This document shows, piece after piece, positions 3,601 to 55,060 of a stretch of 64,000 bases of DNA. Source of the stretch: Limnospira fusiformis SAG 85.79 (GTDB taxonomy: Bacteria > Cyanobacteriota > Cyanobacteriia > Cyanobacteriales > Microcoleaceae); NCBI RefSeq assembly GCF_012516315.1, contig NZ_CP051185.1, positions 5,275,363 through 5,339,362 of the forward strand, read 5' to 3'. The first letter of the stretch is position 1; every line of letters starts with the position of its first letter. The notes under the pieces are model-generated. The model was not told the DNA's origin and searched no databases. It worked only from the letters and a program-made list of their open reading frames with translations. The position numbers and the translations under genes are program-made.

Positions 3601-6229
3601 AATTCCCTACACCTCTAATGGTGGGTAAACTTTCATCACCAGTGGCGATAATTCTACCTTGAGGCGATCGCATCATCACGGGGTCTTGAAACCTGAGATC
3701 TCCCTCAATATAAATAGTCCCCTGAGAATCAGACCTACCAATAATAATCTCGGAAAACCCCCTAGTAATTTGTGACAATTCCAAGCTGTTAAAATTCAGA
3801 GATAAAGGGTCTCCTGTTGGCGAAGAGTTAGCAGAGAGTCCCGAGTTTCTACCTAACCTAATATCTTGGGTTGGTGAAGCAGGTTGTAATAAGAGAGACC
3901 CACTCCCGGAAAGACCACCATTAAGATTAATAGTATCTCCCGTCAACATAATATTACCCCCTGTAGTATCAGGAGATAGTAGACCATCCCAAACCCCGGT
4001 GGAGATAGCACCCACACTAATTTCTATACCAGCATCCAAAGTAATATTACCACCAGATTGCCGTCCGCGCGAGTCGATCGCACCTAAATCCATACTCTCG
4101 CTAGTGGTAATCAAGACATCGCCTCCCTCACCCCTAACGGAGGAGGTAATAATCCGAGATGGTCTCGTCCGATTATTAGTATCATCCATAATAATCCGAC
4201 TACCTTCGCTAATAATAGACACATCACCACCACCCCGAAAGCCAGAAGTATTGATACCCTCTAAAAAAATCTCCCGACTGGCTTCTAGTTGGATATTTCC
4301 CCCGACTCCGGTTGTATCAGTCGCCTGGGAAGATAGGGGACCGGTGAAAATTTGCCGACCACTATTAATAGTAATATTACCGCCGGAAAATCTCCCGTCT
4401 GTTTTCAGATTATTAGTAGTAATTGAACCCTGGCTACTACGGAGAGTAATATCACCGCCTGTATTGTCACTATTAGCAGTAGATATAACCCCGGTATTAA
4501 TCTGACCAATACCACTAGCAGTTAGATTAACATCTCCGCCACTGGTTCTAATATTCCCGGTAGCAATATTGACACCAAAAATATTGAGATTACCACCTCT
4601 AGTTAAGATAGTATCGCCACTGTGCATGATAAAAGAACCCTGACCATCTCCGTTAGCATCAGCGCGGAAAGTAACGGTTCCGGTGGTAGTTCTCAAGTCG
4701 AGTTTTTGGTTAGATAACTGGTCGATGCGAATATCATTTCGTGCTTCCAGAGTAATATCAGCATCAGCGGCTAAATTTTCCAAGGTAGTTTGGGAGAGGG
4801 TATATTCTGCTGGTCCTTGGTCAGCGGTGACTACACCATCAAAGTCGATATTATTATTGGGAGAGGCTTCGGAGTCTACAATCCTGATATTTAAAGGGTC
4901 TAAAAGTAGGGTTCCTAAGTTACCATCTCCGCCGCGCAAATTGACACTACCATCAACGCTGAGAGTTTCGAGACCGGAGATTTCTACAAACCCTCCCTGG
5001 TGTTGTCCTTGTGCGGAAATATTGCCGGAAAATTGGGTATGTCCGTCAGACCAAATAATAATCCTGCCGCCATCTCCGTTAGTGGTGGCGTTGGCTGCTA
5101 GGGTAGAATTATCATCGATGAGGGTATAGATGGCATTAGGAACAGTACCCTGTCCGAGGTAATCACCTCCAATTCTAATTGTACCGCCGTTATCTGGTGC
5201 GGAGGCGCTGATATTCGCACCCCAAATTCCGATGCGATCGCCAAAAATGTTAATCTGGGGGGAATGGTTAAAAATAGTGGAGTCGGTGTCGATGGTTCCC
5301 GACACAGCCACAACTCCAGGATTAGGAGTAATGGGGGTATTAGAACCAGTTAGTTGTATGCGACCATCAGCTAAAATATTGACTCCGGTGGCATAATTTT
5401 CGTCCCCTCCGGTGAGTAGTTCCGGCAAGGATAGGGGGGTAAGATTAGTTGATAATCCATCAGGGGAGGCGGCTGGACTAACTTCTAAACTGAGAAGGTG
5501 TCCGGCTTGGGAAATGCGGAGGATATTTTCACCTTCGACCGCCGCCATGGTAATTTCTCCCCCAGGAGCTACCAGTGACCCGGTATTGATGACAGTTCCC
5601 CCCAGTAGGGTGATTTGTTCTCCCTGGGTAACGGCGAGTTCTCCGGCGTTGACAATGCTACCAGGATTAGTCCCAAAGGCGAAGGCGTTGGGAGTGCCGA
5701 CTAGGGTGCTATAATCATTTGCACCGATCGCACTCATCCAGCGATCGCCAAAACCGATACCAGAAGCGGTAGTAGCGGTAAAGGAACCTGGAACATCTAA
5801 CCGCGCACCCGCACCGAATAAAATCCCGGCTGGGTTGATTAAAAACAGGTTAGAAGCGCCGCCTGTGACCTGCAAAAGTCCGTTAATGCGGGAAGCATCC
5901 CCACCCACCACACGGGTGAGGATGTTTTGGATTTCGGGAGTGGCAATAAAGTTAGCCACAGCGCCGGATTCTACGTTAAAGTGTGTAAAACTGTGGAACA
6001 GATTACTCCCATTTCCCGAAAGTTGTCCCCCAGTGATGTTGGTCTGGTTTCCCTGTTGATGGGTAATGGTGTTGGTGCTGTTGGGTTCGGGTACAATTGG
6101 TTGAGCGATCGCTCTGTTATACCGGATATCGAAAAAGTTTTGTGGTATAATGGAGAGGATATCCAGAACCATCAAACTGGCACAGGAAACCGGGATCAGC
6201 ACTAACTGCAGATGGTGTACTGGGTTCAT
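665..6229 (-). CDS. Two-partner-secretion haemagglutinin-type protein with C-terminal CHAT protease domain
   Basis: This is an 1854-residue exported protein. The N-terminus looks like a signal sequence ending near residues 40-43 (NRAIAQP). A filamentous-haemagglutinin TPS secretion domain follows at about 55-165, with motifs NGSNLFHSF, INPAGILFG and TTASGIGFGD. About 1100 residues of Gly/Asn/Thr-rich beta-helix-type repeats come next, then an acidic Ser/Asn-rich linker. The last 350 residues are a CHAT (caspase-like, clan CD) domain with the probable dyad His1689 (ATHGEF) and Cys1732 (SACTTA). TPS proteins are secreted by a TpsB outer-membrane porin, and no such gene is visible here. The protein is probably secreted or surface-bound with a protease head. 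The substrate is unknown. It is transcribed alone; the neighbouring coaE is divergent. Confidence 0.9.
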   Translation of the reverse strand: MNPVHHLQLVLIPVSCASLMVLDILSIIPQNFFDIRYNRAIAQPIVPEPNSTNTITHQQGNQTNITGGQLSGNGSNLFHSFTHFNVESGAVANFIATPEIQNILTRVVGGDASRINGLLQVTGGASNLFLINPAGILFGAGARLDVPGSFTATTASGIGFGDRWMSAIGANDYSTLVGTPNAFAFGTNPGSIVNAGELAVTQGEQITLLGGTVINTGSLVAPGGEITMAAVEGENILRISQAGHLLSLEVSPAASPDGLSTNLTPLSLPELLTGGDENYATGVNILADGRIQLTGSNTPITPNPGVVAVSGTIDTDSTIFNHSPQINIFGDRIGIWGANISASAPDNGGTIRIGGDYLGQGTVPNAIYTLIDDNSTLAANATTNGDGGRIIIWSDGHTQFSGNISAQGQHQGGFVEISGLETLSVDGSVNLRGGDGNLGTLLLDPLNIRIVDSEASPNNNIDFDGVVTADQGPAEYTLSQTTLENLAADADITLEARNDIRIDQLSNQKLDLRTTTGTVTFRADANGDGQGSFIMHSGDTILTRGGNLNIFGVNIATGNIRTSGGDVNLTASGIGQINTGVISTANSDNTGGDITLRSSQGSITTNNLKTDGRFSGGNITINSGRQIFTGPLSSQATDTTGVGGNIQLEASREIFLEGINTSGFRGGGDVSIISEGSRIIMDDTNNRTRPSRIITSSVRGEGGDVLITTSESMDLGAIDSRGRQSGGNITLDAGIEISVGAISTGVWDGLLSPDTTGGNIMLTGDTINLNGGLSGSGSLLLQPASPTQDIRLGRNSGLSANSSPTGDPLSLNFNSLELSQITRGFSEIIIGRSDSQGTIYIEGDLRFQDPVMMRSPQGRIIATGDESLPTIRGVGNSSLTLEAENEIILGNLVTEGGDISVISQSDIIQIEGIHTLPNGSNQGNILLRGSEINLVGGSHSVRGSGSLRLESSHSGQIMTLGSEENTTGLDIKLSDIDAFAPGFERIIIGSPDGNSIIEIAQDITFTSPVLLQSSSDLGQIIAEGNITGIGDASISLQADGDIRIRDINSSGLNIYINSARGEVITGNLQSGGNINIRSQGNIQTGELRSNASLDNLAFRTIDLSSQRGQITVDGNILGDATFLSLVGRDDIQTGNITAGRGMSLNSDRGTITTGNLQIASPDSLDSSINITALGNINTGDISTATDSGTGANITITSRQGGVQSRNLNTSGSTAGGSIVVQAQDQIFLGAINTNSSEGNAGSVRLTSENDIEVSLINTEAQLRGGSLIIDTSRFFRVTDTFEAMNDVEASISTIGSTGSGTIRLPAFSTPLVIGDPSQNGTAGAITDGQLTAGADTTIVGNNFEQNSIRQTTVNQPEITTENQDLSDVETTGYSVSSIPENLSNSNSNTSDSDQNISGNSNHDAESPLINSNTEANPDIDQAGNLVVQVEPTTVPTDQMARSPLVSSVLQIDSFRGREFLNYFGYNLSKNTVDDQSIRQTLSDIVRITNYKPAIIYVSIQPEILELRLLLPNGEAVFKSVAVNREELLQVARQFSHQIRTPQNFQDTQYKESGQQLYNWLIEPIKQELEKHGIDILIFSMDAGLRTLPLAALYDGEQFLIENYSLSLIPSLSLTDTSYVNLQNARVLAMGASKFPNSNLDPLPAVPLELDLIVGNIWPGQAFLNEEFTIANLKSQREQGEYKIVHLATHGEFVSGGADRSYIQFWDQKLWLNQLRELRLNQPPVELLVLSACTTAVGDEKAELGFAGLAVQAGVKSAMASLWYVSDAGTLGLMTTFYNALTATPIKAEALRQSQLAMLNGQVRLENGYLLSQTNMNTRRGDISTPVPQELAKQNPVDLSHPFYWAGFTLIGSPW

Positions 6230-6337
6230 AATTATCTCCTCCCCTTCCCTAACTGGTTACAAGTTTATGATATCCTCCCTTTTCGCACCCCATTTTCACT
6301 TCTGTAGTGGTAGTTGTAGTATTTGATTGGCTCACTC

Positions 6338-6949
6338 ATGCGGTTAATTGGCTTGACAGGCGGTATTGGTACGGGGAAAACCACTGTTTCTAACTATTTG
6401 GCTGCTACCCATAAACTACCGATATGGGATGCGGACATTTATTCTCGCCTAGCGGTAGAGCCTAACTCACCTGTTCTCAATACTTTGGCGGTTCGCTACG
6501 GCTCAGATTTACTATATCCCGATGGTAGCTTAAATCGAGGCAAGTTGGGGGATATTATCTTTAATAGCTTAACGGAAAGGCAATGGGTAGAAAGCCAAAT
6601 CCATCCTTTTGTGCGCGATCGCTTCCTGGAAAAACGCCAAGAACTAGAAAAACAGTCTCATTTACCAGAAGCTACGGCGGTTTTAGCCATTCCTCTGTTA
6701 TTTGAAGCGAATATGACTGATTTAGTCACGGAAATTTGGGTGGTGTACTGTTCACCGTCTACCCAAAAACAGCGACTTATCCAGCGACATGGATCTTCCC
6801 TAACTCCTACACAGATCCAAGCTAGAATTGATAGCCAAATGCCTTTGAGCGAAAAATGCGATCGCGCGGATGTGATCATATACAATGATGGTAGTCTACA
6901 GCACTTGTATCAACAGTGCGATCGAGCCTTAAAAGGGGAAGGGGTTTAA
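6338..6949 (+). CDS. coaE: Dephospho-CoA kinase
   Basis: CoaE phosphorylates the ribose 3'-OH of dephospho-CoA in the last step of coenzyme A synthesis, in the cytoplasm. The P-loop GGIGTGKT lies at residues 8-15. The family motif WDADIYSR follows, and LAIPLLFE and CSPSTQKQRLIQR are recognisable further on. I chose the ATG at 6338 (MRLIGLTGG), which gives 203 residues, close to the usual 200-206. An upstream TTG at 6323 would add five residues with no family support. The gene is divergent from the CHAT gene and convergent with ho1. Confidence 0.93.
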   Translation: MRLIGLTGGIGTGKTTVSNYLAATHKLPIWDADIYSRLAVEPNSPVLNTLAVRYGSDLLYPDGSLNRGKLGDIIFNSLTERQWVESQIHPFVRDRFLEKRQELEKQSHLPEATAVLAIPLLFEANMTDLVTEIWVVYCSPSTQKQRLIQRHGSSLTPTQIQARIDSQMPLSEKCDRADVIIYNDGSLQHLYQQCDRALKGEGV

Positions 6950-6980
6950 CTCAGAGTTGACCCCACCCCTGCTTATGGCG

Positions 6981-7709
6981 TTAGTTCACCGAGTCAGTAG
7001 CGGTCGCTAGTTCTGTGGAACCTTTACCGCGTCGGCGAGTTAAGCTATTAAATAGCATAATTCCGATCGCTTTTACCAAATTGCCTTCGAGTTCATTAAA
7101 CATTTTCATGTTCATTCCGAAAGCGGCGTTAGCTTCCTCCACAATGCGATCGGCTGTTTCCTGGTCAATCGGCAAATCATTCATGATCTGACGGTAATTG
7201 TTCTTAAATTCCTTCTCATCAGGAATTTCGTCAAACTCATAAAACTGAGTTCCTTGACCGTCCGATAAATTCATCGCTGTTTGAGCAATACCTTTCAGGA
7301 TTTGTCCCCCCGAAAGGTCTCCCAAATAACGGGTGTACAGGTGAGAAATCAACAAAACCGGATCTTGCTCAGAAATCTCTCTAATTCTAGCCACATAAGT
7401 CTGAGCCGCTTCGGAAGGCTGAACTTCCTCCCGCCAGTTGCTACCATAGTAGAACAATAAATCCTGCTCAATAGCAGACTTGCGGTTTAACTCAGGAAAA
7501 TATAGTTTCGAGAGGACGGGGTGATTTTTATGGCGATCCATTTCCTCTTCCATTGCCGTATAGACAAAGTAGAGATTCCCGGCTAATTTCCGATAGGAGG
7601 TTTTCTCAACTGTCCCTCTTAAAAAGCATTTGATAAAACCCACATTTTCCGCCATGGTGTGGGACTTTTTGGTTCCTTCCCGCAACTGGGTGGCTAGATT
7701 AACACTCAT
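6981..7709 (-). CDS. ho1: Heme oxygenase (biliverdin-producing)
   Basis: This enzyme opens heme with ferredoxin and O2 to biliverdin IXalpha, Fe2+ and CO, the first step to phycocyanobilin for phycobilisomes and phytochromes. The 242-residue sequence begins MSVNLATQLREGTKKSHTMA, with the proximal heme ligand at His17. The distal-helix glycine motif LGDLSGGQIL is present. Length and N-terminus match cyanobacterial HO1 (PbsA1). It is a single gene, convergent with coaE. The 170-bp upstream region is AT-rich and could hold its promoter, but I saw no definite element. Confidence 0.96.
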   Translation of the reverse strand: MSVNLATQLREGTKKSHTMAENVGFIKCFLRGTVEKTSYRKLAGNLYFVYTAMEEEMDRHKNHPVLSKLYFPELNRKSAIEQDLLFYYGSNWREEVQPSEAAQTYVARIREISEQDPVLLISHLYTRYLGDLSGGQILKGIAQTAMNLSDGQGTQFYEFDEIPDEKEFKNNYRQIMNDLPIDQETADRIVEEANAAFGMNMKMFNELEGNLVKAIGIMLFNSLTRRRGKGSTELATATDSVN

Positions 7710-7881
7710 AGTAAATTTATTTGATCTGTTAACGAGATTTTACAGCAGATGTATTATCTTGGGGAAACGGCTGATTATACCGCCCGATTTTCTACCTTAA
7801 ACCTATTTGCTTAAAAATAGTGTTAAGAATTGTCACAGATAGTAGACAGGAGAGATTGAGAGTACCAGAAACCGCTGTTGC

Positions 7882-8559
7882 TTAGAGGAAAATTTGACTA
7901 ATAGCAATTTTGCCGCTGAAACAAACATCTACATCTGTACCAGGGGTGCGATCGCGTTGACCATAATCTCCGATATATTGGTATTGTTCCCCATTCACCT
8001 GATATTTAGCCGGAAGCGGGTCACAGGAGGGAGTACAGAAGACCATTTCCGGGTCTGGTTCTTCTGGCTGTAGATAGGGGAGATTGACATTCCAGAAACT
8101 GCGCGGTAAACAAGGTTGATTAAGCAGGTTTTCCAAGACGGCTTGGGTGAGGCGAGTCGCGCGTTCCCAGTCGGCTGGTTTACCGCCTTTTCGATACTGA
8201 GAAATAGCAATAGCCGGAATGCCATGTATAGCGGCTTCTCTAACAGCGGCTACAGTCCCAGATATGTAGGTATCAACACCTAAATTACCCCCGGCATTAA
8301 TCCCTGAGAGAACCCAGGACAAATCTGGACATAAATGGCTAATGGCCAGGCGAACACAATCGGCAGGAGTTCCAGCGATCGCATAATGAGTGGGAGAACG
8401 GCGTGATATATTAATGGGGGTAGCGGTGGTGACTTGATGACCACAGCCGGAAAGGTGATCGCGGGGAGCGACCCAAAGGCAGGGACTCTTTACAGCGGCC
8501 GATAAGGCTTTAATTCCAGGTGCATCAATTCCATCATCATTAGTTAATATAATCGTCAT
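7882..8559 (-). CDS. surE: 5'/3'-nucleotidase SurE
   Basis: SurE is a metal-dependent phosphatase acting on nucleoside monophosphates. The N-terminal TNDDGIDAPG carries the metal ligands Asp8 and Asp9, and SGINAGGNLG supplies the conserved Asn. At 225 residues it is at the short end of the family, and the C-terminus (SGKIAISQIFL) departs from the common pattern. The core is complete. It is transcribed in the same direction as ho1 and the receiver-like gene, but gaps of 90-170 bp argue against one tight operon. Confidence 0.92.
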   Translation of the reverse strand: MTIILTNDDGIDAPGIKALSAAVKSPCLWVAPRDHLSGCGHQVTTATPINISRRSPTHYAIAGTPADCVRLAISHLCPDLSWVLSGINAGGNLGVDTYISGTVAAVREAAIHGIPAIAISQYRKGGKPADWERATRLTQAVLENLLNQPCLPRSFWNVNLPYLQPEEPDPEMVFCTPSCDPLPAKYQVNGEQYQYIGDYGQRDRTPGTDVDVCFSGKIAISQIFL

Positions 8560-8652
8560 ATTTAGGAAGTCCGGTTGCCGTCCCTACATTTTAACCGACA
8601 AGTGCCGATCCGGTTTCCGGTTTCCCGATTAAGATTTTTCTATAAAATGAGA

Positions 8653-9060
8653 TTAAGCAACGTATGGGATAAAAATTGAGCGATATGCAGATTTTCTGCT
8701 CAGGTCATTAAAGATGGTTTTAATCAAATTATTGACGTTTTTCGCAGTAGTCACATAATGATTTCGTGCTAATTGAAAACCGAGGGAGAGAGAACTAACC
8801 GCCGATTCTGATTGAATTAGGATGACGGGAATATCAGCGGTTTTCTGATTCTGCTGTAGCCGATGAATAAATCTATAGGTATTGCGATCGCTCAAATTTA
8901 AACTACTGATAATGAGATGCGGTTTGATTTCTTTAGCGATTTGCACCGCCCAGTTCCCGCCTTCTGCACAGATAATATTAAACTGCTCCAAGGCGATCGC
9001 ATCCTCTAAAGTTGAGTTAAAATCCTGGTTTTCTTCCACCCATAAAATATCAAATATCAT
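8653..9060 (-). CDS. Degenerate response-regulator receiver domain protein
   Basis: This 135-residue protein has the layout of a stand-alone receiver (REC) domain. ILWVEENQ gives the acidic pair at the N-terminus, and LIISSLNLSDRNTY and IPVILIQSES match beta3 and beta4. Two key residues are missing. The phospho-acceptor Asp is replaced by Ser in LIISSLN, and the Lys of the usual TKP motif is replaced in VTTAKN. I infer a pseudo-receiver working through protein contacts without His-Asp phosphotransfer. The partner is unknown. The nearest kinase gene is at 9506-12127 on the same strand. Confidence 0.7.
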   Translation of the reverse strand: MIFDILWVEENQDFNSTLEDAIALEQFNIICAEGGNWAVQIAKEIKPHLIISSLNLSDRNTYRFIHRLQQNQKTADIPVILIQSESAVSSLSLGFQLARNHYVTTAKNVNNLIKTIFNDLSRKSAYRSIFIPYVA

Positions 9061-9505
9061 AATTTTGTCCCCACAGTGTATTAACTAGGAATAGTGCGAC
9101 ACCGATTCAATCCGATAAATCTAGTTTGATAATTTCACACAATCCCATCAATGGAGGAAATCAAGAACAGGTGACAGGGAGAGGAGGATTAATGATCCAA
9201 TCATCAATTATCGACCCCACGACCCCAGGTTATTGACCAATGACTTTTTACTAACCAGTCCCATAACAGTCCGGTAACCAGCCATCAGACTTTTAGTTCC
9301 CCCAGAGTCCCTTACTGAATGACCTCCCGTACAACTACTTACCAAATATAAACAGCAATTGTGAAGATTATGTGATCAACAACCCAATTTTCCGATGAAT
9401 ATGTTAGAGTTGGGGCATCAGGCTTTTGTTTAAGATACTCTAGCCATTAGCCGGAGGGATGCGGAACTGCCCAAACTCCCCGGCTTGGCTATATTGATAC
9501 AGGTT
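9061..9505. other. 445-bp non-coding interval
   Basis: I see no ORF with coding character between the receiver-like gene and the histidine kinase gene. The only clear structure is the long inverted repeat at 9441-9491, listed separately. Confidence 0.6.
9441..9491 (-). ncRNA. Possible structured RNA or 3' hairpin behind the histidine kinase gene
   Basis: TAGCCA-tt-AGCCGG (9441-9454) pairs with CCGGCTTGGCTA (9480-9491), giving a 12-bp stem with a 2-nt bulge around a 25-nt loop. Outside it, GAGT near 9411 and ACTC near 9437 could pair as well. It lies 14 bp beyond the kinase stop codon. No U-tract follows on either strand, so it is not a standard intrinsic terminator. It may be a processed 3' end or a small RNA. 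I recognise no known RNA family. Confidence 0.35.
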
Positions 9506-12127
9506 CTAGGTGTTATATTCGCTATGTATGGGGATCTGAATACAGAACTCCGAACCCACACCTGGTTCTGATGTGCAGTTTAACTTCCCTTTGTGCAAAT
9601 CGACGACAATTTGATAGCTAACGGATAGACCCAACCCAGTCCCCTGACCCACAGGCTTAGTGGTAAAGAATGGGTCAAAAATGCGCGATCGCAACTCTTC
9701 AGGTATACCCACTCCATTATCAGCAATGCGAATAAATGCCAGGTTATTTTTAGTTAAACCAGTAGTAATTGTCAGTGTAGGTTCCTTAGCAGATTGCTGA
9801 CATTCGGAGCTTTTTAGGGCATCAATAGCATTATTAAAGATATGCAAAAACACCTGATTTATCTGGCCAGCATAGCATTCAACTTTAGGCAAATCACCGT
9901 AATTTTTAATCACCACAATTTCCCGCTCTCCAGGTAAGGGTCGGAGGCGACTTGTCAAGACCATCAAAGTGCTATCAATCCCCTGATGAAGGTCTATTTC
10001 CTTAATTGCCGACTCATTCAATCGGGAAAAACTTTGCAGGGAGTTAACAATTTCCTGAATCCTTTTAGCACCATTCTGAATGGAATTAATCAACTGAGGA
10101 ATATCAGTAATTAAAAAATTGAGATCAATCTCTTCGATTAATTCTGTAATTGCCAATGGTGGTTCTGTATAATATTGTCGATAGGATTCAATTAGCAACA
10201 GTAAATCCTGGGTATATTCTTCCAGGTGAGGCACATTACCAACAATAAATCCCACGGGATTATTAATTTCATGAGCCACCCCGGCCACCATTTGTCCCAA
10301 GCCAGACATTTTCTCGCTCTGAATTAGTTGGGTTTGGGTGCGTTTGAGTTTAGTTAAGGCTTTTTCTAGTTTCTCGGTCTGTTGTTGGAGGTGAATTTCC
10401 GCCCGTTTCCGCTCAGTAATATCCATAATCGTCCCAAACAGGCTGACAATTTGGTTATCGTGATTCAAAATGGCTTTAAACTTAATATGAACATAGCTAA
10501 CTGAGTTTTCATCCTTGATAATTCTGGCTTCTGCCTGACAAGTAGTTCCATTATTGCGAGTTTCTGCTAGGGCTTTCTCAACCAATGGTCTATCTTCGGG
10601 GTGATAGCATTGCAGACATTGCTCTACGGAAGGTATACCCAAGGTCTGGTCTAAGCCCAAAATCCTAAATACCTCATCAGACCAAGTAAGTTCCCCAGTA
10701 TCGATATCCAATTCCCAATTACCAATATGGGCTAATTCCTGGGCTTCCTGAAGATCGGAGGTGATTTCCCGCAGGCTGGCTTCGGCTTTTTTCCGGGATG
10801 TAATATCATTTAAAGATGCTACAGCACCCAAAACATTACCCCGACCATCTTTGATAGCACTAGCACGCAGTAACACCTGAAAGACACGGTTATTTTTAGC
10901 GCGGTGTTCGACTTCACCCACCCAGTTTTTGCCTTGGCTAATGACCGCAAAAATTTGTCGGGGAATTTGCGGGTCAGTATAAGCGCCAGATATCCCCCCA
11001 AATACTTGGTTAAATTCTTCTGGGGTTTCACACCCAAACATCTCAGAAAAGGCGGGATTTTGATAAAAGTGATTCCACTGTGCATCAGCCATAGCGATCG
11101 CATCACTAGAGCTTTCCACAGCCTGTTTATAAAGCATTAAGGTAGCTTCAGCCTGTTTGCGTTCGGTAACATCACGGCAAATACACACCACCCCAGCGGC
11201 ACTTTTAGTTACAGACATCTCCTGGATGAAGAAACTACCATCTTGGCGACGACTACGGAGTTCTCCTTGCCATTCATTTTCAGCAGCAAAGACGGGAGAG
11301 ACTTCTCGCCGGATATATTCTATCTCATCCCCATCATATAATTCCTGCCAAGTTTTGCCTAAAATCTCTTCAGCTTGGCTGTAGCCGAACATTTCTAAAT
11401 AAGCACGGTTAACATAGGTAAATACTCCCTCGGAATTTTGTAAGGCGATACCGTCGGTGCTGGCTTCAATGGCGGCGAGTCGCTGTTTGAGTAGTTCCTC
11501 TTGTTGTAGGCGATCGCTAATATCATCTAATATTCCCAACACTCCAACTATATTTCCCTGGTGATTATCAAGGGGAATTTTGGTAGTTTCGACCAGAATT
11601 TCTTTTCCTTGGACTAGGTGGCGGGTTCCTCTGACTTTGATTTGAGGCGATTTTGAGGATATAACTTGGCGATCGAATTCCTGATACAATTTAGCCTCTT
11701 GAGGAGTCCAAGGTAAATCATCATCAGTTTTACCCACAATTTCTCTGGGGTCTTGTAATCCGACTTTCTCCGCAAATTGACGGTTACATCCCAAGTAAAC
11801 AGAGTTACAGTCTTTCCAAAAAACGGCTTGAGGAACATAATCAATTACCATCTGTAACAGGTGGTCACAATTTATGGAATTGGAGTGATTGGCAATCACA
11901 TTAATTTTCTGCTGCTGTAATTTTTGCCTCAGACTGTGATTTTCCTGTTGCAGTTGGACTACATGACGACGTAATTCGGCAAGTTCCCCTTGCAGATGGT
12001 TGGTCGGTTCCACTTCTGAATAATCACAATCACAAGAATTATTGGATAAGCTATCGTTAACGGTCAAGTATACACCATTACTGGACCAATTTTCATTGTC
12101 GGACATTTGATTTTCCCTTGATGTCAT
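9506..12127 (-). CDS. Multi-PAS sensor histidine kinase
   Basis: This is an 873-residue soluble kinase with no membrane segment. A short coiled coil (about 50-75) is followed by four PAS domains, roughly at 85-205, 215-330, 335-450 and 460-575. A second coiled coil leads into the HisKA region, where GVAHEINNP holds the phospho-accepting His619. The ATPase domain has the N-box FNNAIDAL, the G1 box [19 protein letters not shown] and GTGLGLS. The HEINNP type of H-box is common in cyanobacterial PAS kinases. The ligands of the PAS domains cannot be read from sequence. No full response regulator is adjacent; the nearest is the degenerate receiver at 8653-9060. A start eight codons later (MSDNEN) is also possible. 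Confidence 0.9.
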
Positions 12128-42183: not shown

Positions 42184-43257
42184 TTAATTTGATAGAAGTT
42201 TACCTAATGTCAATCCTAAGCCGGAAATCGAAACTAATATCAAAGCGGTATAAAATTTGTTGAAGGAAACCAATAATTTTTCCCCGGCTACCATTTGCGC
42301 GACTACGCCAAAAATAATGGCAATGGCTCCCCAAGCGCCGACGATCGCATCAAGTCCGGTGTTGGCGATCGCCGCTCTGACTGCCCCAGACCCGGCTCCT
42401 GACCACGCTCCTAACCACGCTCCTAATTGAAATCCGAACCAACTACCAACGCCGCCGCGTTTTTTGACTTGAAACATAGCATCAGAAATAATGCCAATTA
42501 TCCACCCAGTCGAAGAACCAATTATTCCCCCAATTAGAGATCCTAAACCATTCCCGGTTTCAGCCCCGGCTACCCAACCAGCGATCGCTAAAATTCCGGT
42601 GAAGCTAAACCCCCAAATAATCGTGCGTGAGTTACTATCGGAACCGATAATTGACCCTAAAGCAGTTCCGGCTATAGCCCAGGCGATCGCGGTAATTAGC
42701 CCCCCCGCTTGACTTCCGGCGATCGCTCCCGCTATTCCTCCCGCTATCATCAGAGAAATTAACCAAGGATACTGGGTCTGGGAACCATAACTGGCTTCTA
42801 GGGATAGTCCTACCCAAACCAATGGGACTAATAACCACGTCCCTGGGTAAATGTCTAAATATCCTAAAATCCAACCTACTAGGGTATAGCTGAAAAATGC
42901 CCCGGTTAACCAACCCCAGGGGATGAGTTCGTCACTGGTTTCGGGTTCGCTAGGATTGACTTTCGGGGGTCTTGGTGGGCGCTGAATAGGTGTGGCGGTT
43001 ACTGGTGGGGTGGGTGGCGGCGGGGAGATGACTGGGTAAGGGGAGAAGTTGGGATCCCTTAATAGGGTCATGAGGCGATCGTAAGCATAGTTGATCTCTT
43101 TGAATTTTTCTGTGGCTTGATACTGAATATGGGAGTCGGCCGGATAGCGATCGGGATGCCATAATAATGCTAGAGTCCGATAAGCCTGTTTGATTTCCTC
43201 TAGGGAAGCACCAGGTTTGACGTTCAGAAGTTGATAGTAGCGATCGATATCGTCCAC
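42184..43257 (-). CDS. Membrane-bound J-domain protein
   Basis: This 357-residue protein has an N-terminal J domain (1-66) with intact HPD at 34-36 (LLWHPDRYPAD). A Pro/Thr-rich linker (about 74-108) leads to a glycine-rich region with about six to eight membrane segments (120-355; for example GIAGAIAGSQAGGLITAIAW). J domains stimulate Hsp70 ATPases. This one would recruit an Hsp70 to the membrane, possibly the divergent Hsp70 encoded at 48954. Confidence 0.85.
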   Translation of the reverse strand: MDDIDRYYQLLNVKPGASLEEIKQAYRTLALLWHPDRYPADSHIQYQATEKFKEINYAYDRLMTLLRDPNFSPYPVISPPPPTPPVTATPIQRPPRPPKVNPSEPETSDELIPWGWLTGAFFSYTLVGWILGYLDIYPGTWLLVPLVWVGLSLEASYGSQTQYPWLISLMIAGGIAGAIAGSQAGGLITAIAWAIAGTALGSIIGSDSNSRTIIWGFSFTGILAIAGWVAGAETGNGLGSLIGGIIGSSTGWIIGIISDAMFQVKKRGGVGSWFGFQLGAWLGAWSGAGSGAVRAAIANTGLDAIVGAWGAIAIIFGVVAQMVAGEKLLVSFNKFYTALILVSISGLGLTLGKLLSN

Positions 43258-47027: not shown

Positions 47028-47282
47028 ATGAAAACCATCAGCCACAGGACGATTTTGGGTCTGATACTATCGGCGATCGCATTTTCGGCGATCGTCAAAA
47101 GTGGCGAATATCTCCTCTGTGAAAATTCCCCCGCTTCTGATGATTCACCTCCCCTCGGTCAGTTGTGTGATCAATTCACCAAACTTGGCGATCTGATCGG
47201 GGAGGTTTTTCTATTCAGCCAAACGCCACGACACAACAGCTTTTTAGATTCGCAGGACCAAGGAAACAATTATTTTATTTGA
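47028..47282 (+). CDS. Small membrane-anchored hypothetical protein at the head of the Hsp70 cluster
   Basis: From ATG 47028 this frame gives 84 residues, with one hydrophobic segment (about 8-23) followed by a polar tail with two Cys. It ends 8 bp before the next gene, so it may be the first gene of the chaperone cluster. The start is uncertain, since GGAG sits right next to the ATG. No family recognised. Confidence 0.4.
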   Translation: MKTISHRTILGLILSAIAFSAIVKSGEYLLCENSPASDDSPPLGQLCDQFTKLGDLIGEVFLFSQTPRHNSFLDSQDQGNNYFI

Positions 47283-47290
47283 GGGTTTGA

Positions 47291-48859
47291 ATGGTGTTTA
47301 AAGAGCAATATGCACTACAACCAGGGGGACCCGAAAGATTGGTTGTTTCCTGGGAGAAGGGATGGCAAAATTTTACCATTTATTTAGATGGACGGGAACT
47401 CGGTAAATTTGTCAATCCTCAAGCTATCAAAGACGGACAATGCTTTGATTTGAAAGACGGCACGCAAATTAAAGTTAAGCTGATTCGTGACTTTATTTTT
47501 TGGTATTTACAAATTCTGTGGCGCGATCGACCGGTTCCCGGTTCCGAAACCGATCCTGAAACTCAACTCAAAAAGGCTTATAACATCTTTACGAACATCT
47601 GGAAAATTGGGGCTGGTATTGTTGGCTTAGTATTCCTTCTGTCTTTATTCGCCATCAATGAGGTAGGTGCTGGGGTAATTCTTCTGCCTTTATTTTTACT
47701 ATCGAATATATCACCATATTTTCTAACTGCTTATTTTCTGAAACGGAAAGCAAAACTAGCAGCTTATTTCGCCATCTGGTTTGTGTTTGTCTTATATATT
47801 TATGCTTGGCTCGCATTTTGGATGTCAGTATTGATGAGCATTTTCTGGGTATTAGCGAGTTTAATGAATGGATTCGGGACTTTTATAGCTGTAATCATAT
47901 CAGTTTCACTATTAAATATATTTTTACGTTGGGTATTGCATTTATTTTATACTGCCTTCAAAAGGGTATGGGCTGCGCCGTTCGCCATTTATCAACTCGA
48001 TGAAAAATGGGGATTAAATTCTGGGGTTCATCCTAATTACCAATATCAAGATAATGTCAATAATCCCATTCCCATTCAATCAAATTCGGCTATTTTGACC
48101 AATCTTTCCAATCTTACAAATAGACCACCTGCACCACCACCTGCACCACCTGCACCTGCACCACCACCTGCACCACCACCACCGAAACCACCAAAACCAC
48201 CAAAACCGATGACTCCCCCTATACCGAGGAGGGTAAATAATGCAGCGATCGCCAAAATGCAAACCTTGAATCCAGAGGGTTATAAACTTTATCAAAAAGC
48301 CGAACAATCCCAAGATCCTCACATCTTTTTTCAAGCCGGAGAAATGTACGATCGCAGCTATAGTTCATTCTGGGGAGATGGCATTTTTTCTGGCAACTAT
48401 GATCGCCATTTTATCAAAATGTTGGGGATATCAATTGATGTGGTGGGAATGGAAACCGCCAAACAGGAAGCCACAACGATTATCAAAAATTCCCGCGATT
48501 CTTTAGTGATTAGTTGCTTGTGTTATCTGAAAGCCATAAAACTCGATTCTAATCACTACTGGTCAACCTTAAAATTAGCAACAGCCCTGACAGCAGCATT
48601 ACAAATTGAGGCATCGCTAACCTATTGGCGACAAGCCTTAAATCTTGAAAAACAGGACACTTTATCAGCCCTAACTGCGGACTCGATGGGATTTGATAAT
48701 CGTTCGACTGCCGCCAAAGAAGTGATGTATAAGTTAGGACTAGGCAGCAACCCGCAAGACTTCGACTCCCATTTTCTCAAACAGCAGGCGATCGCCAAAA
48801 AACTGCTCTGTGATCACCCTTACTTGAGCGACAATATTCCTAAATTAAGAACTGGATAA
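47291..48859 (+). CDS. Multi-pass membrane protein with proline-rich linker, Hsp70 cluster gene 1
   Basis: This 522-residue protein has a beta-rich N-terminal domain (about 10-80; VVSWEKGWQNFTIYLDGREL). Four or five membrane segments lie between about 105 and 225. A Pro/Ala/Lys linker spans 279-314. The helical C-terminal domain (about 325-520) has TPR-like character (YKLYQKAEQSQDPHIFFQAG, WSTLKLATALTAALQIEASL). It probably anchors the downstream chaperone set to the cytoplasmic or thylakoid membrane. Hsp70 follows after 94 bp on the same strand. No family recognised. Confidence 0.7.
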   Translation: MVFKEQYALQPGGPERLVVSWEKGWQNFTIYLDGRELGKFVNPQAIKDGQCFDLKDGTQIKVKLIRDFIFWYLQILWRDRPVPGSETDPETQLKKAYNIFTNIWKIGAGIVGLVFLLSLFAINEVGAGVILLPLFLLSNISPYFLTAYFLKRKAKLAAYFAIWFVFVLYIYAWLAFWMSVLMSIFWVLASLMNGFGTFIAVIISVSLLNIFLRWVLHLFYTAFKRVWAAPFAIYQLDEKWGLNSGVHPNYQYQDNVNNPIPIQSNSAILTNLSNLTNRPPAPPPAPPAPAPPPAPPPPKPPKPPKPMTPPIPRRVNNAAIAKMQTLNPEGYKLYQKAEQSQDPHIFFQAGEMYDRSYSSFWGDGIFSGNYDRHFIKMLGISIDVVGMETAKQEATTIIKNSRDSLVISCLCYLKAIKLDSNHYWSTLKLATALTAALQIEASLTYWRQALNLEKQDTLSALTADSMGFDNRSTAAKEVMYKLGLGSNPQDFDSHFLKQQAIAKKLLCDHPYLSDNIPKLRTG

Positions 48860-48953
48860 ATCATGATAGTTAAGATTTGTTAAAATTTTCGGATAAAACT
48901 TGCCAAAATAGCGGAAGACAATTAAAGTATAAATAATCAAGGTTAAATTAATC

Positions 48954-51167
48954 ATGGGAAATATAGTTGGGATAGATTTGGGGACTACCAATTCAGTAGC
49001 AGCTTTTAAGTGGGCTGAGGTCAATGTAGTGACTGCTGCTGAGAACTCACCGCCCGATCGCAAATTAACCCGGTCAGTGGTGGCGGCGGATCGCAATGGG
49101 TTAATCGTGGGTGAACAAGCCTATCGCCAACTGGGCGATGGAGATACCGAAAATGTGATAATTTCCATCAAGCGACTAATCGGAAGAGGCTTTAATGATC
49201 CGGTTGTGCAACAACAATTATCTCGCTTCAATTATAAGATTGATAAATCCAGCCAAGGGACGGAAAATAGCCTATCGGTTTGGTTGGGGGGACGGGAATA
49301 TCTACCGGAAGATATATCGGCGGAAATTCTTAAAAAAGTTGTCAGTAATGCCCAAACTTATCAGGAGCGATCGGGGCAAACTAGCCGCATTACAGAAGCT
49401 GTAATTACCGTTCCCGCTTATTTCAATGATAAGCAGCGATACGCCACGGAAATCGCCACGCAAAAAGCCGGATTAAAACTCCGGGAACTTCTCCCAGAAC
49501 CGACAGCAGCAGCTATTTCCTATGGTTATCGTCCGGACTCAGATGAGGTGAGTACCATCTTAGTTTATGACTTTGGTGGGGGTACTTTGGACTGTTCGAT
49601 TATTACTTCGGTTGGTAATCAATTTATTGAGTCAGCCAAATCGGGGGATTTGTGGTTAGGTGGGGACGATTTTGATAACTGTATTGTGGAATTTGCCAAA
49701 CAGGAAATCGCCCGGATTGAAAACCTCGATAATGTCGATCGCTTAATTAAAAAAATGCCGCATTATCAACGAGTGCGGCTGCTGGCGGAATTGAAAATTC
49801 AGGCGGAACAGGCGAAAATTAGACTGAGTACCCAAGGTGCAGCGGAAATTATTACCTCGGCACATTTAATTGATGAAATGGGAATGGCAATTCCGATTCA
49901 AGTTACCATCAGTCGCCAAGAGTTTGAAAAACGCATCGAACCGTTAATCGATCGCTCAGTAAAAATTGCTCAGGACGCGATTAAATATTCAGATTATCCC
50001 CTCGATCAAATTGATGCAATTCTGTTAGTTGGCGGTTCCGCGCAGGTGCCGATCGTGCAACAAAAAATCCGCCAAGCCTTCCCCCAACATCAAGTTGTGG
50101 TTCACGATCGCCCCATGTATGCGGTGGCGGAAGGGGCGGCGATCGTGGCGGCGGGACTTACGGAAAAAGTCACGACTGTTTCCCGTGATTATTGCATTGA
50201 ATTGGTGGATGAGCCGCGATTTGTAATCATTAGTCAGGGCGATATTCTTCCGGTGCAAAAGTTCCATACTTTTAAAACTGAAGCGGACGGACAATCGCTA
50301 ATTCACTTTAAATTTTTTAGCCCAGATCGCGTCCGCCAGGAACTCGATCGCCGATTTCAAGACGAGCGGATCGGGGATATGTGGTTAGCGCTCGATCGCC
50401 CCTATCCAAAAGGTACGGAAATTTTAGTGACGGTGGAACTTGACGAGGAAAATAACTCGCTGCAAATGACGGCGGCTCTCAAGAATAATCCTCAGGTTAA
50501 AGTTAGTTGTTCATTCTCGCGGGGGGGAGTTAATGAGGAGATTTCTCGCCAGGTTGAGGAACGAATTAAACAACTGAATGCGGCGGGTAACTTAACGGAA
50601 ATCGGTGTGAAACGTGCTAATGAAATCGCCGGGGAAGTGGTGCGATCGGCTAACCAAATTTATTATAATGGTCAAGTGCAGCGCGATCGCCTTAACCAAG
50701 CTGAAAGCAAACTCAAGGAATTAGAAGAATTTGCTAATGATGAGTTAGATATTGCCAAGATTTTCATAATGCGATTTGAATTAGCGCTGGAAGTGTGCGA
50801 TCAGCTAATCCATGAAGATCAAAAATATCGGTTGCGGAATTTAGTAGATCAACTGCAACAAGCCTTGAATAGCAAGAATATTGCCAGCTTGCAAAAATTA
50901 ATAGAAGATAGCAAACGAGAGTTTGATAACCTTCCCGATAGCGTCAAACTGATTGTGGTAATTCGGGAGGAGATCGGCCGCATTCACCATCTTAACCCCA
51001 GTCAAGCGGGAGGTATGGAGGTCAAATTTAATCAATTGTTGAACGCATTACAGCAAGGAAATGGCAGCCAAGCTAATAGCCTGCTGCAAGAACTCCAGGC
51101 TGAGATTATTCCCTATTTAGATCGGGAATTACCCACAGGAACTATTGCTACAGGATTGACACGATGA
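48954..51167 (+). CDS. Divergent Hsp70 (DnaK-like) chaperone, cluster gene 2
   Basis: This 737-residue protein has a complete Hsp70 nucleotide-binding domain: phosphate 1 GIDLGTTNSVAAF (5-17), connect 1 and phosphate 2 VYDFGGGTLDCSI (about 203-215), and adenosine motif LLVGGSAQVPIVQ (about 355-368). Normal DnaK has GGGTFDVS. After the linker near 390 the substrate-binding half is strongly altered and longer (KTEADGQSLIHFKFFSPDR), and a long charged helical C-terminus follows. It differs from housekeeping DnaK, which should be encoded elsewhere. The ATGA overlap with the next gene shows translational coupling. Confidence 0.88.
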   Translation: MGNIVGIDLGTTNSVAAFKWAEVNVVTAAENSPPDRKLTRSVVAADRNGLIVGEQAYRQLGDGDTENVIISIKRLIGRGFNDPVVQQQLSRFNYKIDKSSQGTENSLSVWLGGREYLPEDISAEILKKVVSNAQTYQERSGQTSRITEAVITVPAYFNDKQRYATEIATQKAGLKLRELLPEPTAAAISYGYRPDSDEVSTILVYDFGGGTLDCSIITSVGNQFIESAKSGDLWLGGDDFDNCIVEFAKQEIARIENLDNVDRLIKKMPHYQRVRLLAELKIQAEQAKIRLSTQGAAEIITSAHLIDEMGMAIPIQVTISRQEFEKRIEPLIDRSVKIAQDAIKYSDYPLDQIDAILLVGGSAQVPIVQQKIRQAFPQHQVVVHDRPMYAVAEGAAIVAAGLTEKVTTVSRDYCIELVDEPRFVIISQGDILPVQKFHTFKTEADGQSLIHFKFFSPDRVRQELDRRFQDERIGDMWLALDRPYPKGTEILVTVELDEENNSLQMTAALKNNPQVKVSCSFSRGGVNEEISRQVEERIKQLNAAGNLTEIGVKRANEIAGEVVRSANQIYYNGQVQRDRLNQAESKLKELEEFANDELDIAKIFIMRFELALEVCDQLIHEDQKYRLRNLVDQLQQALNSKNIASLQKLIEDSKREFDNLPDSVKLIVVIREEIGRIHHLNPSQAGGMEVKFNQLLNALQQGNGSQANSLLQELQAEIIPYLDRELPTGTIATGLTR

Positions 51168-51694
51168 CGATTAAACTCACCTGTCCGGTGTGCGGTCGCG
51201 CCGAAATTGAGGGCAATATTTGCCCCAACTGCGAAACTGATCTCACCCTCATTCGGCAACTGCAAGAACTCCCCCAATTGGCGGTTGAACCTGCGGTTAT
51301 TGCCGCCCCTAAATCCTCTCAAAATATCCAACAGTTGTTGTTGGTAATGGGCATCATAATTTTACTTTTGGGAATTGCCTTGGGAAGATTTATCAGGGGT
51401 GAATCTGATGTGCAAACTGCCTCGGTTTATCCTACAGAAGTTATAGAAACTGCTCGATTTCTTCCCTCCCTGAATAAACCGAAAATCGATAAAAATAGCC
51501 CGGCATCCTGTGGGGGATTTTACTACTCGGTTCAACGGGGAGATTCCCTGTCGAGAATTGCGCGCAAGTTTTATGGGGAGGGGTCGCGCTGGCCACAATT
51601 AATCGAAACGAACCCGAATTTAAAAGGTAGAGAAAATCAGATCGAAGTTGGGGAAGTGATTTTGATCCAAAACTTACCAGAATACTGCCTATGA
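51164..51694 (+). CDS. Zinc-ribbon, membrane-helix and LysM protein, cluster gene 3
   Basis: This 176-residue protein has an N-terminal zinc ribbon (Cys7, Cys10, Cys20, Cys23: CPVC...CPNC) and one membrane helix (about 54-73). The C-terminal LysM domain (about 119-168) has SVQRGDSLSRIARKFYG and LKGRENQIEVGEVILI. The ribbon would be cytoplasmic and the peptidoglycan-binding LysM periplasmic, so it could tie a cytoplasmic chaperone to the wall. It overlaps Hsp70 and the TPR gene by ATGA at both ends. Confidence 0.82.
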   Translation: MTIKLTCPVCGRAEIEGNICPNCETDLTLIRQLQELPQLAVEPAVIAAPKSSQNIQQLLLVMGIIILLLGIALGRFIRGESDVQTASVYPTEVIETARFLPSLNKPKIDKNSPASCGGFYYSVQRGDSLSRIARKFYGEGSRWPQLIETNPNLKGRENQIEVGEVILIQNLPEYCL

Positions 51695-54204
51695 ATGCAA
51701 TTATTAATTGGGTTGATGCTCTGACATACGCACTGTTTAAGGTAGAAATTGTTGATTTCTTTAAGAAAGTTTCTGTTACTAAGCAGGACATCAAAACCGC
51801 CCACAAACTTGCTGCCAAAAAAAAGCTAATTGAGGCTACTAAAAAGGGGCAATCTACTCTTAGCAAATGGTCAAATTCCCCGGCTTTGGTTGAGCAAAAA
51901 CTGCGACAGCTATTGATGGGAAATTTGTTAACTGATTTTAAGTCAGAGATTAATTCGTGGAAACAGAAAATCAAATTTGCTAAAAGCATGATCGCTTCGG
52001 CTCAGGCTTTAGAAAAATCTGATGCTGGCGATCCGCTGGATACGACAAATTTATCAAAGGCTTTGTCAACATATAAAAAATGTCGAACAATTATTGATAT
52101 AAGTCTTGTCAATCAGGCGATCGCTCGCTGTGAACACAAAATGATGAAATATAATCAATTTAGGACATTATTTACAGAAGGTCAAAAATATTGCCAAGAA
52201 AAAGATTATAAAAAAGGGAAACTGAGTTTTGAGCGAGCGAAAACATTATTTCCCATTCCACTGCTAGAAGAAGCGATCGCCGATTGTTCAGGATATATTC
52301 AGGGACAAAATCAGTATGAATTAGCATTAGAAAAAGCGGTAAATTTAGCGAAAAATGGTGAATTTAAGGCCGCCCTAAATGTGATTAATTTAGCCTTAGA
52401 TAAGTTCGAGCGCGAAGATGGTCAAACATTGCGGGGGACACTAAACCGGGTGATGCAAGGAAAAGACTATTATAGTCAAGGACTTGGGGCGGAAAAGTCG
52501 GGAAATTTAGGACAGGCTATATCATTTTACCAAAAATCATATCAGTTACTCCCGGAATTAACAGAAACCCAAATTCGCTTGGCAATTGTTTCCCTAAAAA
52601 CAGCAAATTGGCAACAGGCGATCGCACATTTGCAGGGACATTCAGGAGAAAAAATTAAATATCTGCGTGGTTTTGCTTACCTCCAACAGGGTGATTTTCA
52701 ACAGGCTGAAGTGGAATGGCGATCGCTATCCCATCCCCAAGTTAAAAGTCAATTGGAAATTGTCCGCACATTAAGGGGGCGCGATCGCTTAAAATTGATG
52801 TTGTCTATTCAACAGTTGGTTGATGATAATAACCTGGACAATGCTGGTGCTATGAGCCGTCAATTTTTACATAGTTACGGCTCAGATACGGTGGTTGAAG
52901 CTAATCTCAATAACCATATTTTGCCGCGCCTAGAAGCTAAAATTTGGGAGGGTCAAGATTGGCCAAAAATTGCCCAAATCACGGAACAAGTTTGGCTAAA
53001 AAACGGAGATTGTAAATCTCTGCATAATTGGGCGATCGCTACCTATTATAATGCTCAAATTAACAGCCACACCCGCCGGGATTGGGTGGTGGCTGCTACC
53101 ACGGCTTTAGCGAATTTAGAGCGCGATCCGGCTTGGCAAAATATTCCTTGGCTGCCGAAAATTTCCATTGATATTGAGGAAATTTTTAGTCATTTTCTGG
53201 CTACCCTAGAAACGGCGATCGATAGCTTAAAAGACGATAACTTAGCCGAGTATCTGAAACTGCGAGATCAATTTCGTCTGGATGCGATCGCCCTGAAATT
53301 AGTTAAAAAGTTCCCCCATCAAGCAGCCCAAATTAATCACCTAATTTTATTGCCGGGATGTTACCATCGCTATCGACATCAATTTAGCAATATTAAGATT
53401 CCTCAAACTTCCAATTCTGCATCAACAGAAACCAATATTTTGCCCGCGCTTTATACCTCCTGGGGTTTGGCTGTGGCGGCGGCATTTGACGGAGATGGAG
53501 AACGCGCTATCCAACTTAAACCTTCTCGGAGTTACCAATTTAACTCTTCTCAAAAAAACGAATATTTTGCCCAAAAATTTTTAGCTTATTCCGAGGGAAT
53601 TCACTATCTGCAAAAACAACGCTGGCGAGAGTCAATCGCGGCTTTAAATGCTCTCAAAAATGAATGGCGATCGCACCCAGAATGGCATCGAGAACTTGAG
53701 CGCTTATGTGAGTCTCAGCGTCAGGCGTTAAACAGTTTATCAGACCATCTGGCTTTTAGCGATTTTTGGTATCAACTATTGGGAACTGAAGCCTCCTGTA
53801 GCTATTGGGTTGAATCTCGTATTCAAGAAATTTGCGAAAATTTACAGCATCATAAAATTGATAAAAATCGAGCTTTATCTCAGCTTCGAGAACTGCAAAA
53901 AACCGATAGTAAAAACCCCCGTTTAATTTATGTCATTGAAACCTTAGAATTTGAGATTGAGGTTAATGAAATTATTGGTTTGATGCCATCTAATTTAAAT
54001 GATGCGGTACGTCGCGCCAAAAACTGCCATAATCAGAAAGTGAAGCGACATATTGCTGCTATGTTAATAGAAATTTTAATTGCGGGAGTTAATGAAGGTA
54101 AAATGAACGGGGAAACTGCCGTACAATTTGCCCGTTGGGCGCATCAAATTTGCCCCAATGACCCCGAATTTGTGGATATTTATCGTCAATGTGGAATTTA
54201 TTAA
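51691..54204 (+). CDS. Large TPR-like helical protein, cluster gene 4
   Basis: This 837-residue, almost wholly alpha-helical protein has TPR-type repeats (for example GQKYCQEKDYKKGKLSFERA, GLGAEKSGNLGQAISFYQKS, RGFAYLQQGDFQQAEVEWRS, ALKNEWRSHPEWHRELERLC). No catalytic motif or membrane helix is seen. TPR proteins often scaffold Hsp70 systems. Its start overlaps the LysM gene stop, and the J-like gene starts 3 bp after its own stop. Confidence 0.75.
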   Translation: MNAIINWVDALTYALFKVEIVDFFKKVSVTKQDIKTAHKLAAKKKLIEATKKGQSTLSKWSNSPALVEQKLRQLLMGNLLTDFKSEINSWKQKIKFAKSMIASAQALEKSDAGDPLDTTNLSKALSTYKKCRTIIDISLVNQAIARCEHKMMKYNQFRTLFTEGQKYCQEKDYKKGKLSFERAKTLFPIPLLEEAIADCSGYIQGQNQYELALEKAVNLAKNGEFKAALNVINLALDKFEREDGQTLRGTLNRVMQGKDYYSQGLGAEKSGNLGQAISFYQKSYQLLPELTETQIRLAIVSLKTANWQQAIAHLQGHSGEKIKYLRGFAYLQQGDFQQAEVEWRSLSHPQVKSQLEIVRTLRGRDRLKLMLSIQQLVDDNNLDNAGAMSRQFLHSYGSDTVVEANLNNHILPRLEAKIWEGQDWPKIAQITEQVWLKNGDCKSLHNWAIATYYNAQINSHTRRDWVVAATTALANLERDPAWQNIPWLPKISIDIEEIFSHFLATLETAIDSLKDDNLAEYLKLRDQFRLDAIALKLVKKFPHQAAQINHLILLPGCYHRYRHQFSNIKIPQTSNSASTETNILPALYTSWGLAVAAAFDGDGERAIQLKPSRSYQFNSSQKNEYFAQKFLAYSEGIHYLQKQRWRESIAALNALKNEWRSHPEWHRELERLCESQRQALNSLSDHLAFSDFWYQLLGTEASCSYWVESRIQEICENLQHHKIDKNRALSQLRELQKTDSKNPRLIYVIETLEFEIEVNEIIGLMPSNLNDAVRRAKNCHNQKVKRHIAAMLIEILIAGVNEGKMNGETAVQFARWAHQICPNDPEFVDIYRQCGIY

Positions 54205-54207
54205 ATT

Positions 54208-54579
54208 ATGTCAAATCAACTACCCAATCCTAACCCTTATCAGGTTTTAGAGGTTTCTCCTTCGGCATCTAAGGCTGAAATTACCAAGGCTTTTGCGATG
54301 GCAATGAAGCGGAAAAAATACTCCCCCGATTTAATTGCTAGGGCGAGAAAAGCCTTGATGGATGACAAAGAACGTTTAATTGCTGATTATTTGCATCCGG
54401 TTTTACCACCCATTCAGCGGTTTAAGCGACAGGATTTCTCGGAACTTGAAAAACCGATTCCAGTTTTCGAGATGATTTCCGAATTTGATGATCTATCGTC
54501 AGCCATTGGCGCGGAAAAATCCGGCGAGGTGGCTCAACAATTAGGACAAAAAATCTTTATTCAATTTTTGAGTATTTAA
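54208..54579 (+). CDS. J-like protein without HPD, cluster gene 5
   Basis: This 123-residue protein has an N-terminal region (9-60) that follows the J-domain pattern: NPYQVLEVSPSASKAEITKA, then helix III with RARKALMDDKERLIADYL. The catalytic tripeptide HPD is replaced by Ser39-Pro40-Asp41. Without the His a J domain normally cannot trigger ATP hydrolysis in Hsp70, so this may bind the neighbouring Hsp70 as an inhibitor or adaptor. Alternatively the divergent Hsp70 may not need the His. Confidence 0.65.
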   Translation: MSNQLPNPNPYQVLEVSPSASKAEITKAFAMAMKRKKYSPDLIARARKALMDDKERLIADYLHPVLPPIQRFKRQDFSELEKPIPVFEMISEFDDLSSAIGAEKSGEVAQQLGQKIFIQFLSI

Positions 54580-54583
54580 GATT

Positions 54584-55060
54584 ATGAATCATGCAAGCAA
54601 ACTCGAAATTCCTGCCGAACTTCGTGACGAGATTCAACAAAAAATAGGGCAGCTTCTCCAAGAAAAAACTTTAATGCAACAAGCATTAATGGGTAAAGAA
54701 CAGGAAGAATTTGCCCGGCTAGAAATGCTTTTTTTAGAACTACTAGAGGTTGTGGATTCTCTCGATTTTTTGATGGAATATTTGCACAATAACCCCCAAC
54801 CCGATCCCAAAGCGATCGCCCGTTTTCCCCAATTAATCGGCAGCATTCATAAAAAATTACTCAATACCCTGGAAAAACGAGAGGTGCTCACTATTGATTT
54901 TCAGGGCGAAAAACCGGATTTTGATGTGTGTAAAATTATCGATCGCGAAGTTAATCCCGACCTCGAAAATGAAACGATCACCAAAATTGTCCGGCGAGGA
55001 TTTCAATATGGCGATCGCCTTTTGCGTCCGGTGGAAGTGATTGTTTCCAAGTCCGAATAA
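54584..55060 (+). CDS. Divergent GrpE-like nucleotide exchange factor, cluster gene 6
   Basis: This 158-residue protein has an N-terminal coiled coil (about 10-45) and a central ELLEVVDSLDFLMEYL, like the LLPVLDNLERA region of GrpE. The C-terminal ITKIVRRGFQYGDRLLRPVE is nearly the GrpE signature. GrpE releases ADP from Hsp70. It starts 4 bp after the J-like gene and closes the cluster, which fits a private exchange factor for the Hsp70 at 48954. Confidence 0.8.
   Translation: MNHASKLEIPAELRDEIQQKIGQLLQEKTLMQQALMGKEQEEFARLEMLFLELLEVVDSLDFLMEYLHNNPQPDPKAIARFPQLIGSIHKKLLNTLEKREVLTIDFQGEKPDFDVCKIIDREVNPDLENETITKIVRRGFQYGDRLLRPVEVIVSKSE

Follow-up and report, generated by a model that had tools for sequence, protein, structure and literature searches.

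Around a divergent Hsp70 gene of Limnospira fusiformis a run of genes raises the question of whether this cyanobacterium has an Hsp70 machine dedicated to the cell envelope, and whether such a machine would work by the usual Hsp70 cycle. We analysed a 64,000-nucleotide stretch (the window), positions 5275363-5339362 of the 6.42-Mb single-contig genome. The sequence-only reading of this DNA had described a unit of six or seven co-directional genes with tight junctions. Every ORF of the run is present in one direction, and the junctions were seen as two 4-bp ATGA overlaps (Hsp70/ZR-LysM and ZR-LysM/TPR) and gaps of 3 bp (TPR/J-like) and 4 bp (J-like/GrpE-like), a close spacing that would suit co-transcription. 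The unit is smaller than described: five genes, from Hsp70 on, belong to it (Table 1), but the first two genes of the run are non-core. Among the claimed domains, Hsp70, LysM, TPR and GrpE pass Pfam profiles, but the J domain is under the bit cut-off.

Table 1. Features of the Hsp70 locus in the window
Feature	Positions	Strand	Remarks
Conserved unit	48954-55060	+	Hsp70, zinc-ribbon/TM/LysM (ZR-LysM), TPR solenoid, J-like, GrpE-like
Hsp70 of separate clade	48954..51167	+	737 aa; Pfam HSP70 E=7e-93
Protein with Cys4 zinc ribbon, one TM and LysM	51164..51694	+	176 aa; LysM E=9e-9
Large TPR-type alpha-solenoid	51691..54204	+	837 aa; TPR_2 E=4e-11
HPD-less J-like protein	54208..54579	+	123 aa; Pfam DnaJ 23.7 bits
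GrpE-like, predicted nucleotide exchange factor	54584..55060	+	158 aa; Pfam GrpE 70.5 bits
Accessory multi-TM protein, proline-rich linker	47291..48859	+	lineage-specific, outside core
Intergenic gap 5' of Hsp70	48860..48953	+	94 bp

Conservation and distribution of the five-gene set

Recurrence of the neighbours elsewhere had been proposed as a check, and we detected the core set together in other cyanobacterial genomes. The exact single-copy order Hsp70, ZR-LysM, TPR, J-like, GrpE-like was found in 43 of 65 loci (the window and 64 named cyanobacterial loci), with median gaps of -4, -4, 14 and 2 bp. No intact locus has a rearranged order, and the remaining loci are mostly contig-end fragments, frameshift splits or loci with one gene missing. 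This arrangement far exceeds chance. All 64 module loci from a scanned collection of bacteria and archaea are cyanobacterial; the scan used short patterns, so distant relatives may have escaped it.

Strong matches in 291 cyanobacterial genomes were obtained for the GrpE-like protein in 27, the J-like protein in 22 and the TPR protein in 22. The genomes with the J-like protein all have the GrpE-like protein as well (22/22) and nearly all have the TPR protein (21/22), the locus of the 22nd ending at a contig end.

The module is patchy and open to loss. Only the ZR-LysM and GrpE-like genes are left in five Nostocales-type loci (L044, L045, L049, L052, L067), where the TPR and J-like genes are gone; two of the five have an Hsp70 remnant, and the L067 GrpE is a partial match. 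The Hsp70 frame of Arthrospira sp. PCC 9108 (L074, 4742-6954) is split by a 1-bp deletion, representing a pseudogene or a sequencing error. Because of the partial losses in the five genomes and this frameshift, the module is not essential.

Partial loss or a broken frame, seen in several genomes, could be taken to mean that these are decaying or low-value genes held by linkage, forming no machine, with the HPD and linker changes described below being degeneration. We regard this as very improbable, given dN/dS values of 0.09-0.40 across the five genes (two Arthrospira strains: Hsp70 0.09, J-like 0.10, GrpE-like 0.20, ZR-LysM 0.38, TPR 0.40), which indicate purifying selection between these strains, and Hsp70 substitutions that are fixed and uniform in 56 orthologues with invariant ATPase motifs. 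The distance matrices of Hsp70, TPR, J-like and GrpE-like proteins correlate at 0.81-0.95, to which shared ancestry also contributes.

A separate Hsp70 clade and the lost HPD contacts

The module Hsp70 scores 312 bits with Pfam HSP70, and the GIDLGTTNSV, DFGGGT and GGS motifs are invariant or almost invariant in the orthologue alignment. The window protein is 47-58% identical to 16 aligned members. In a tree with the three DnaKs of the same genome, E. coli DnaK, HscA and HscC, and viral DnaKs, 19 module Hsp70s formed one group (support 100/99) on a long stem, outside DnaK, HscA and HscC; the precise placement of this clade is unsure because of long branches elsewhere in the tree. The viral Hsp70s from the profile search are ordinary DnaKs, and R167 and the linker are intact in the five examined.

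We aligned 56 distinct Hsp70 orthologues to E. coli DnaK. R167 is replaced in all 56 (by Glu in 54), N170 is replaced in 56/56 and Q378 is Val in 56/56. The VKDVLLLD linker is absent from every one of them, and a conserved stretch with SRDY or ARDY is present instead; P419 is retained. The three DnaKs of the same genome, HscA and HscC keep R167, N170, Q378 and a recognisable linker. In the DnaK-DnaJ pair, H33 touches L391 of the linker, and D35 touches R167 and Q378 (PMC8215388; cf. PMC7289447).

The partner side was changed as well. HPD is found between helices II and III in none of the 64 distinct J-like sequences; the helix II-III loop is short, about 4 residues, and the window protein has KKYSPD where HPD would sit. 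The identification as a J-like protein holds in part: Pfam DnaJ gave E=5e-5 and 23.7 bits, below the 27.8 cut-off, and HPD is absent, but in the AlphaFold model the helices follow the pattern of a J domain, with helices II and III packed accordingly (pLDDT 92-95 for the J core). The top PDB matches in the fold search were J domains (probability 1.00, E 0.016, none below 0.001), which we regard as supportive only of a J fold. The nearest named relative is from Arthrospira sp. PCC 9108 (95% identity). The GrpE-like identification passed the Pfam profile clearly, at E=2e-19 and 70.5 bits versus a cut-off of 25.8, over residues 15-156 including the C-terminal beta domain, with PDB profile matches to GrpE (4ani, 1dkg).

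Since the H33/D35 contact sites are gone on both sides, the Hsp70 and the J-like protein have lost the same interface. The loss is apparent in the alignments, and from it we infer a consequence for the ATPase. The normal Hsp70-J-GrpE cycle that had been expected is not supported, because HPD is absent from the J-like protein and the residues it contacts are absent from the Hsp70.

A canonical cycle would still run if a J protein with HPD from elsewhere partnered the module and the J-like protein were a recruiter or restrainer of the Pam16 type. Pam16/Magmas is HPD-less and exerts its effect through pairing with a J protein, being itself unable to stimulate mtHsp70 (PMC8605242), and 11 matches to the J domain lie above cut-off in the genome, including an HPD-bearing membrane J protein (42184-43257). 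We consider this arrangement unlikely, since the module Hsp70 is also without R167, Q378 and the linker, which are the target sites of HPD, and no HPD-bearing J gene recurs within the module loci.

Membrane and cell wall components

Full-length ZR-LysM orthologues all have CxxC..CxxC and one TM (59/59, by motif and hydropathy), and in 51 of the 59 the part that follows the TM contains exactly two cysteines. Two cysteines at this place fit a periplasmic disulphide. From hydropathy and the paired cysteines the LysM domain is predicted to be periplasmic, with ZR-LysM as a predicted inner-membrane tether.

The AlphaFold model of the TPR protein (mean pLDDT 90.4) is almost wholly helical, and Foldseek with this model returned generic solenoids only (TM-scores <0.2 by query length) and no specific relative. 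Some TPR orthologues start with a TM or with TM-LysM-TM; the Pseudanabaena protein has an N-terminal TM, a LysM, which is under the Pfam cut-off, and a second TM. Most of the Hsp70 orthologues end in TG(L/I)xR or a near variant (TGLTR in the window). The eukaryotic Hsp70 tail EEVD docks to TPR proteins, and by analogy one could guess that the module Hsp70 tail docks on the TPR protein.

In three lineages (L054, L059, L115/L116) the J-like protein has an extension made up of a TM, a linker and a pair of SPOR-like repeats, scored by Pfam SPOR above cut-off in L054, at cut-off in L059 and below in L115. The repeats form a separate gene between J-like and GrpE-like in L079; they are 47% identical to those of L059, on which their assignment rests, as Pfam makes no SPOR call on them. 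We treat the SPOR assignment of the repeats as weak.

That three of the five components carry wall-binding parts is the strongest argument for placing the machine at the envelope. The earlier proposal of a dedicated envelope Hsp70 set is strengthened by this recurrence of TM and LysM or SPOR-like domains on the components.

Flanking genes and regulation

The genes 5' of Hsp70 and 3' of GrpE change between lineages. A conserved upstream partner was ruled out, as the upstream genes are unrelated between loci; several are housekeeping genes, e.g. transketolase and urease (named from sequence only). The proline-rich membrane protein had been counted as a module part and was found to be lineage-specific: among the loci compared its gene adjoins the module in none but those of Arthrospira and Planktothrix, its N-terminal half was matched in 3/116 genomes, and its dN/dS of 0.61 is the weakest constraint of the set. 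For the 101-aa ORF (46977 or 47029 to 47282) no homologue was detected among the loci compared.

Because the upstream genes vary elsewhere, a promoter belonging to the module itself probably lies in the 94-bp gap 5' of Hsp70. This gap has a single weak sigma-70-like match, at 48900-48928, with 19 matches in the region versus 18.1 expected. Heat-shock regulation was rejected, as nothing resembling CIRCE was detected (the closest match had 5 mismatches in 18 positions), and no structured RNA was found within the window.

Two gene neighbourhoods may be recorded here. The HPD-bearing membrane J-domain protein (42184-43257, minus strand) is encoded 5.7 kb upstream of the module on the opposite strand, and is not a neighbour that is conserved. 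Pseudanabaena-type loci (L057, L061, L063, L064, L065) have, between the TPR and J-like genes, a DUF433/DUF5615 pair that probably represents a toxin and its antitoxin.

Comparison with described systems

The five-gene set was not found described in the literature searched, whose coverage took in few subscription papers. The claim that no described system has such a composition was too strong: the GAP1-N2 neighbourhoods of Kaur et al. 2020 come close to it, combining Hsp70, GrpE, DnaJ or TPR with zinc ribbons, TMs and wall-binding domains around a GTPase, which the module does not have (PMC7159879). By gene composition, this Hsp70/GrpE theme is the nearest described one, and both are membrane-proximal, but GAP1-N2 has a GTPase, GAP1 and FNIII core and is mostly of actinobacteria and firmicutes, while the cyanobacterial unit is without these.

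The shared parts and the patchy distribution would suit a conflict or defence system akin to the GAP1-N2 theme, which would sense envelope damage or invasion. We hold this to be more doubtful still than a J partner from elsewhere, since GTPase, GAP1, FNIII and effector genes are all missing from the conserved unit, which has no hypervariable component either. PADLOC models gave no convincing match, and no match to the module was found in plasmid and phage searches. None of these searches supports the phage response suggested earlier.

The same genome has a second private Hsp70 set at another locus (L071, C1:4112000-4130000; 4831-11772), made up of a 1076-aa ORF that fuses a UvrD helicase with an Hsp70, a GrpE-like protein of 589 aa and a fusion of an Hsp70 ATPase domain to S1 domains. 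The Hsp70-S1 fusion is without a substrate-binding domain, a likeness to the SBD-less GAP1-N2 Hsp70, and R167 is lost in both Hsp70 proteins of this set.

The mitochondrial PAM (Hsp70, Pam18, Pam16, Tim44, Mge1) likewise combines a membrane-tethered Hsp70 with a GrpE and a J-like protein that has no HPD, but it has the HPD-bearing Pam18, a canonical Hsp70 and no LysM/SPOR; it is an analogy, not a homology. E. coli HscC with tail-anchored DjlB/DjlC is a specialised Hsp70, probably at the inner membrane as in the module. Unlike the module Hsp70, HscC retains the contact residues and linker, is thought to be GrpE-independent, and its set has no TPR, LysM or GrpE gene. The DnaK1/DnaJ3/GrpE type IV pilus system of Nostoc is similar as a cyanobacterial Hsp70 serving an envelope machine; the module Hsp70 differs from its dnaK1, which is canonical and lies between grpE and dnaJ (PMC9239167). 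The canonical grpE-dnaK-dnaJ locus of the genome studied here (L073) is away from the module. The chloroplast proteins CJD1 and ARC6 are HPD-less J-like membrane proteins of the cyanobacterial/plastid lineage, like the module J-like protein, but have no known co-encoding with Hsp70 or GrpE (PMC3196505).

Proposed machine and its meaning

Taking these data together, we think that the module probably encodes a membrane- and cell-wall-tethered Hsp70 machine, working without HPD at the cytosolic face of the envelope. The genomes contain the conserved module, the loss of HPD and of its contacts, the TM segments and the wall domains; the topology, complex, nucleotide cycle and client would be as follows. 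ZR-LysM would span the inner membrane once, with its LysM on peptidoglycan and its zinc ribbon facing the cytosol. On this same side would lie the TPR solenoid and the J-like protein without HPD. These two would have a TM and a LysM or SPOR-like part of their own in some lineages, and would form a scaffold positioning the Hsp70 on an envelope client, as a first guess a wall- or septum-associated complex.

The Hsp70 would keep ATP binding and hydrolysis and be reset by its own GrpE. Hydrolysis would be triggered otherwise than by HPD acting on R167 and the linker, and the J-like protein would be an adaptor or non-canonical regulator comparable to mitochondrial Pam16. A housekeeping J protein with HPD could potentially serve the module Hsp70.

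A bolder version, which we put forward only tentatively and judge less likely than not to be right, is that this is a fourth, cyanobacterial type of bacterial Hsp70, in which a wall-anchored scaffold without HPD controls the ATPase and relays the peptidoglycan state across the inner membrane.

The Hsp70 clade, the paired loss of the HPD contact and the recurrent wall-binding domains, all read from sequence comparison, are new. HPD has been described as essential to J-protein action in all Hsp70 systems tested (PMC8215388). In the module, a conserved set that occurs naturally, the HPD contact is gone on both sides and the GrpE and J-like proteins are retained; because such a set exists, the J-protein role beyond HPD becomes directly testable. 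It also hints at how a chaperone in the cytosol might be coupled to the wall.
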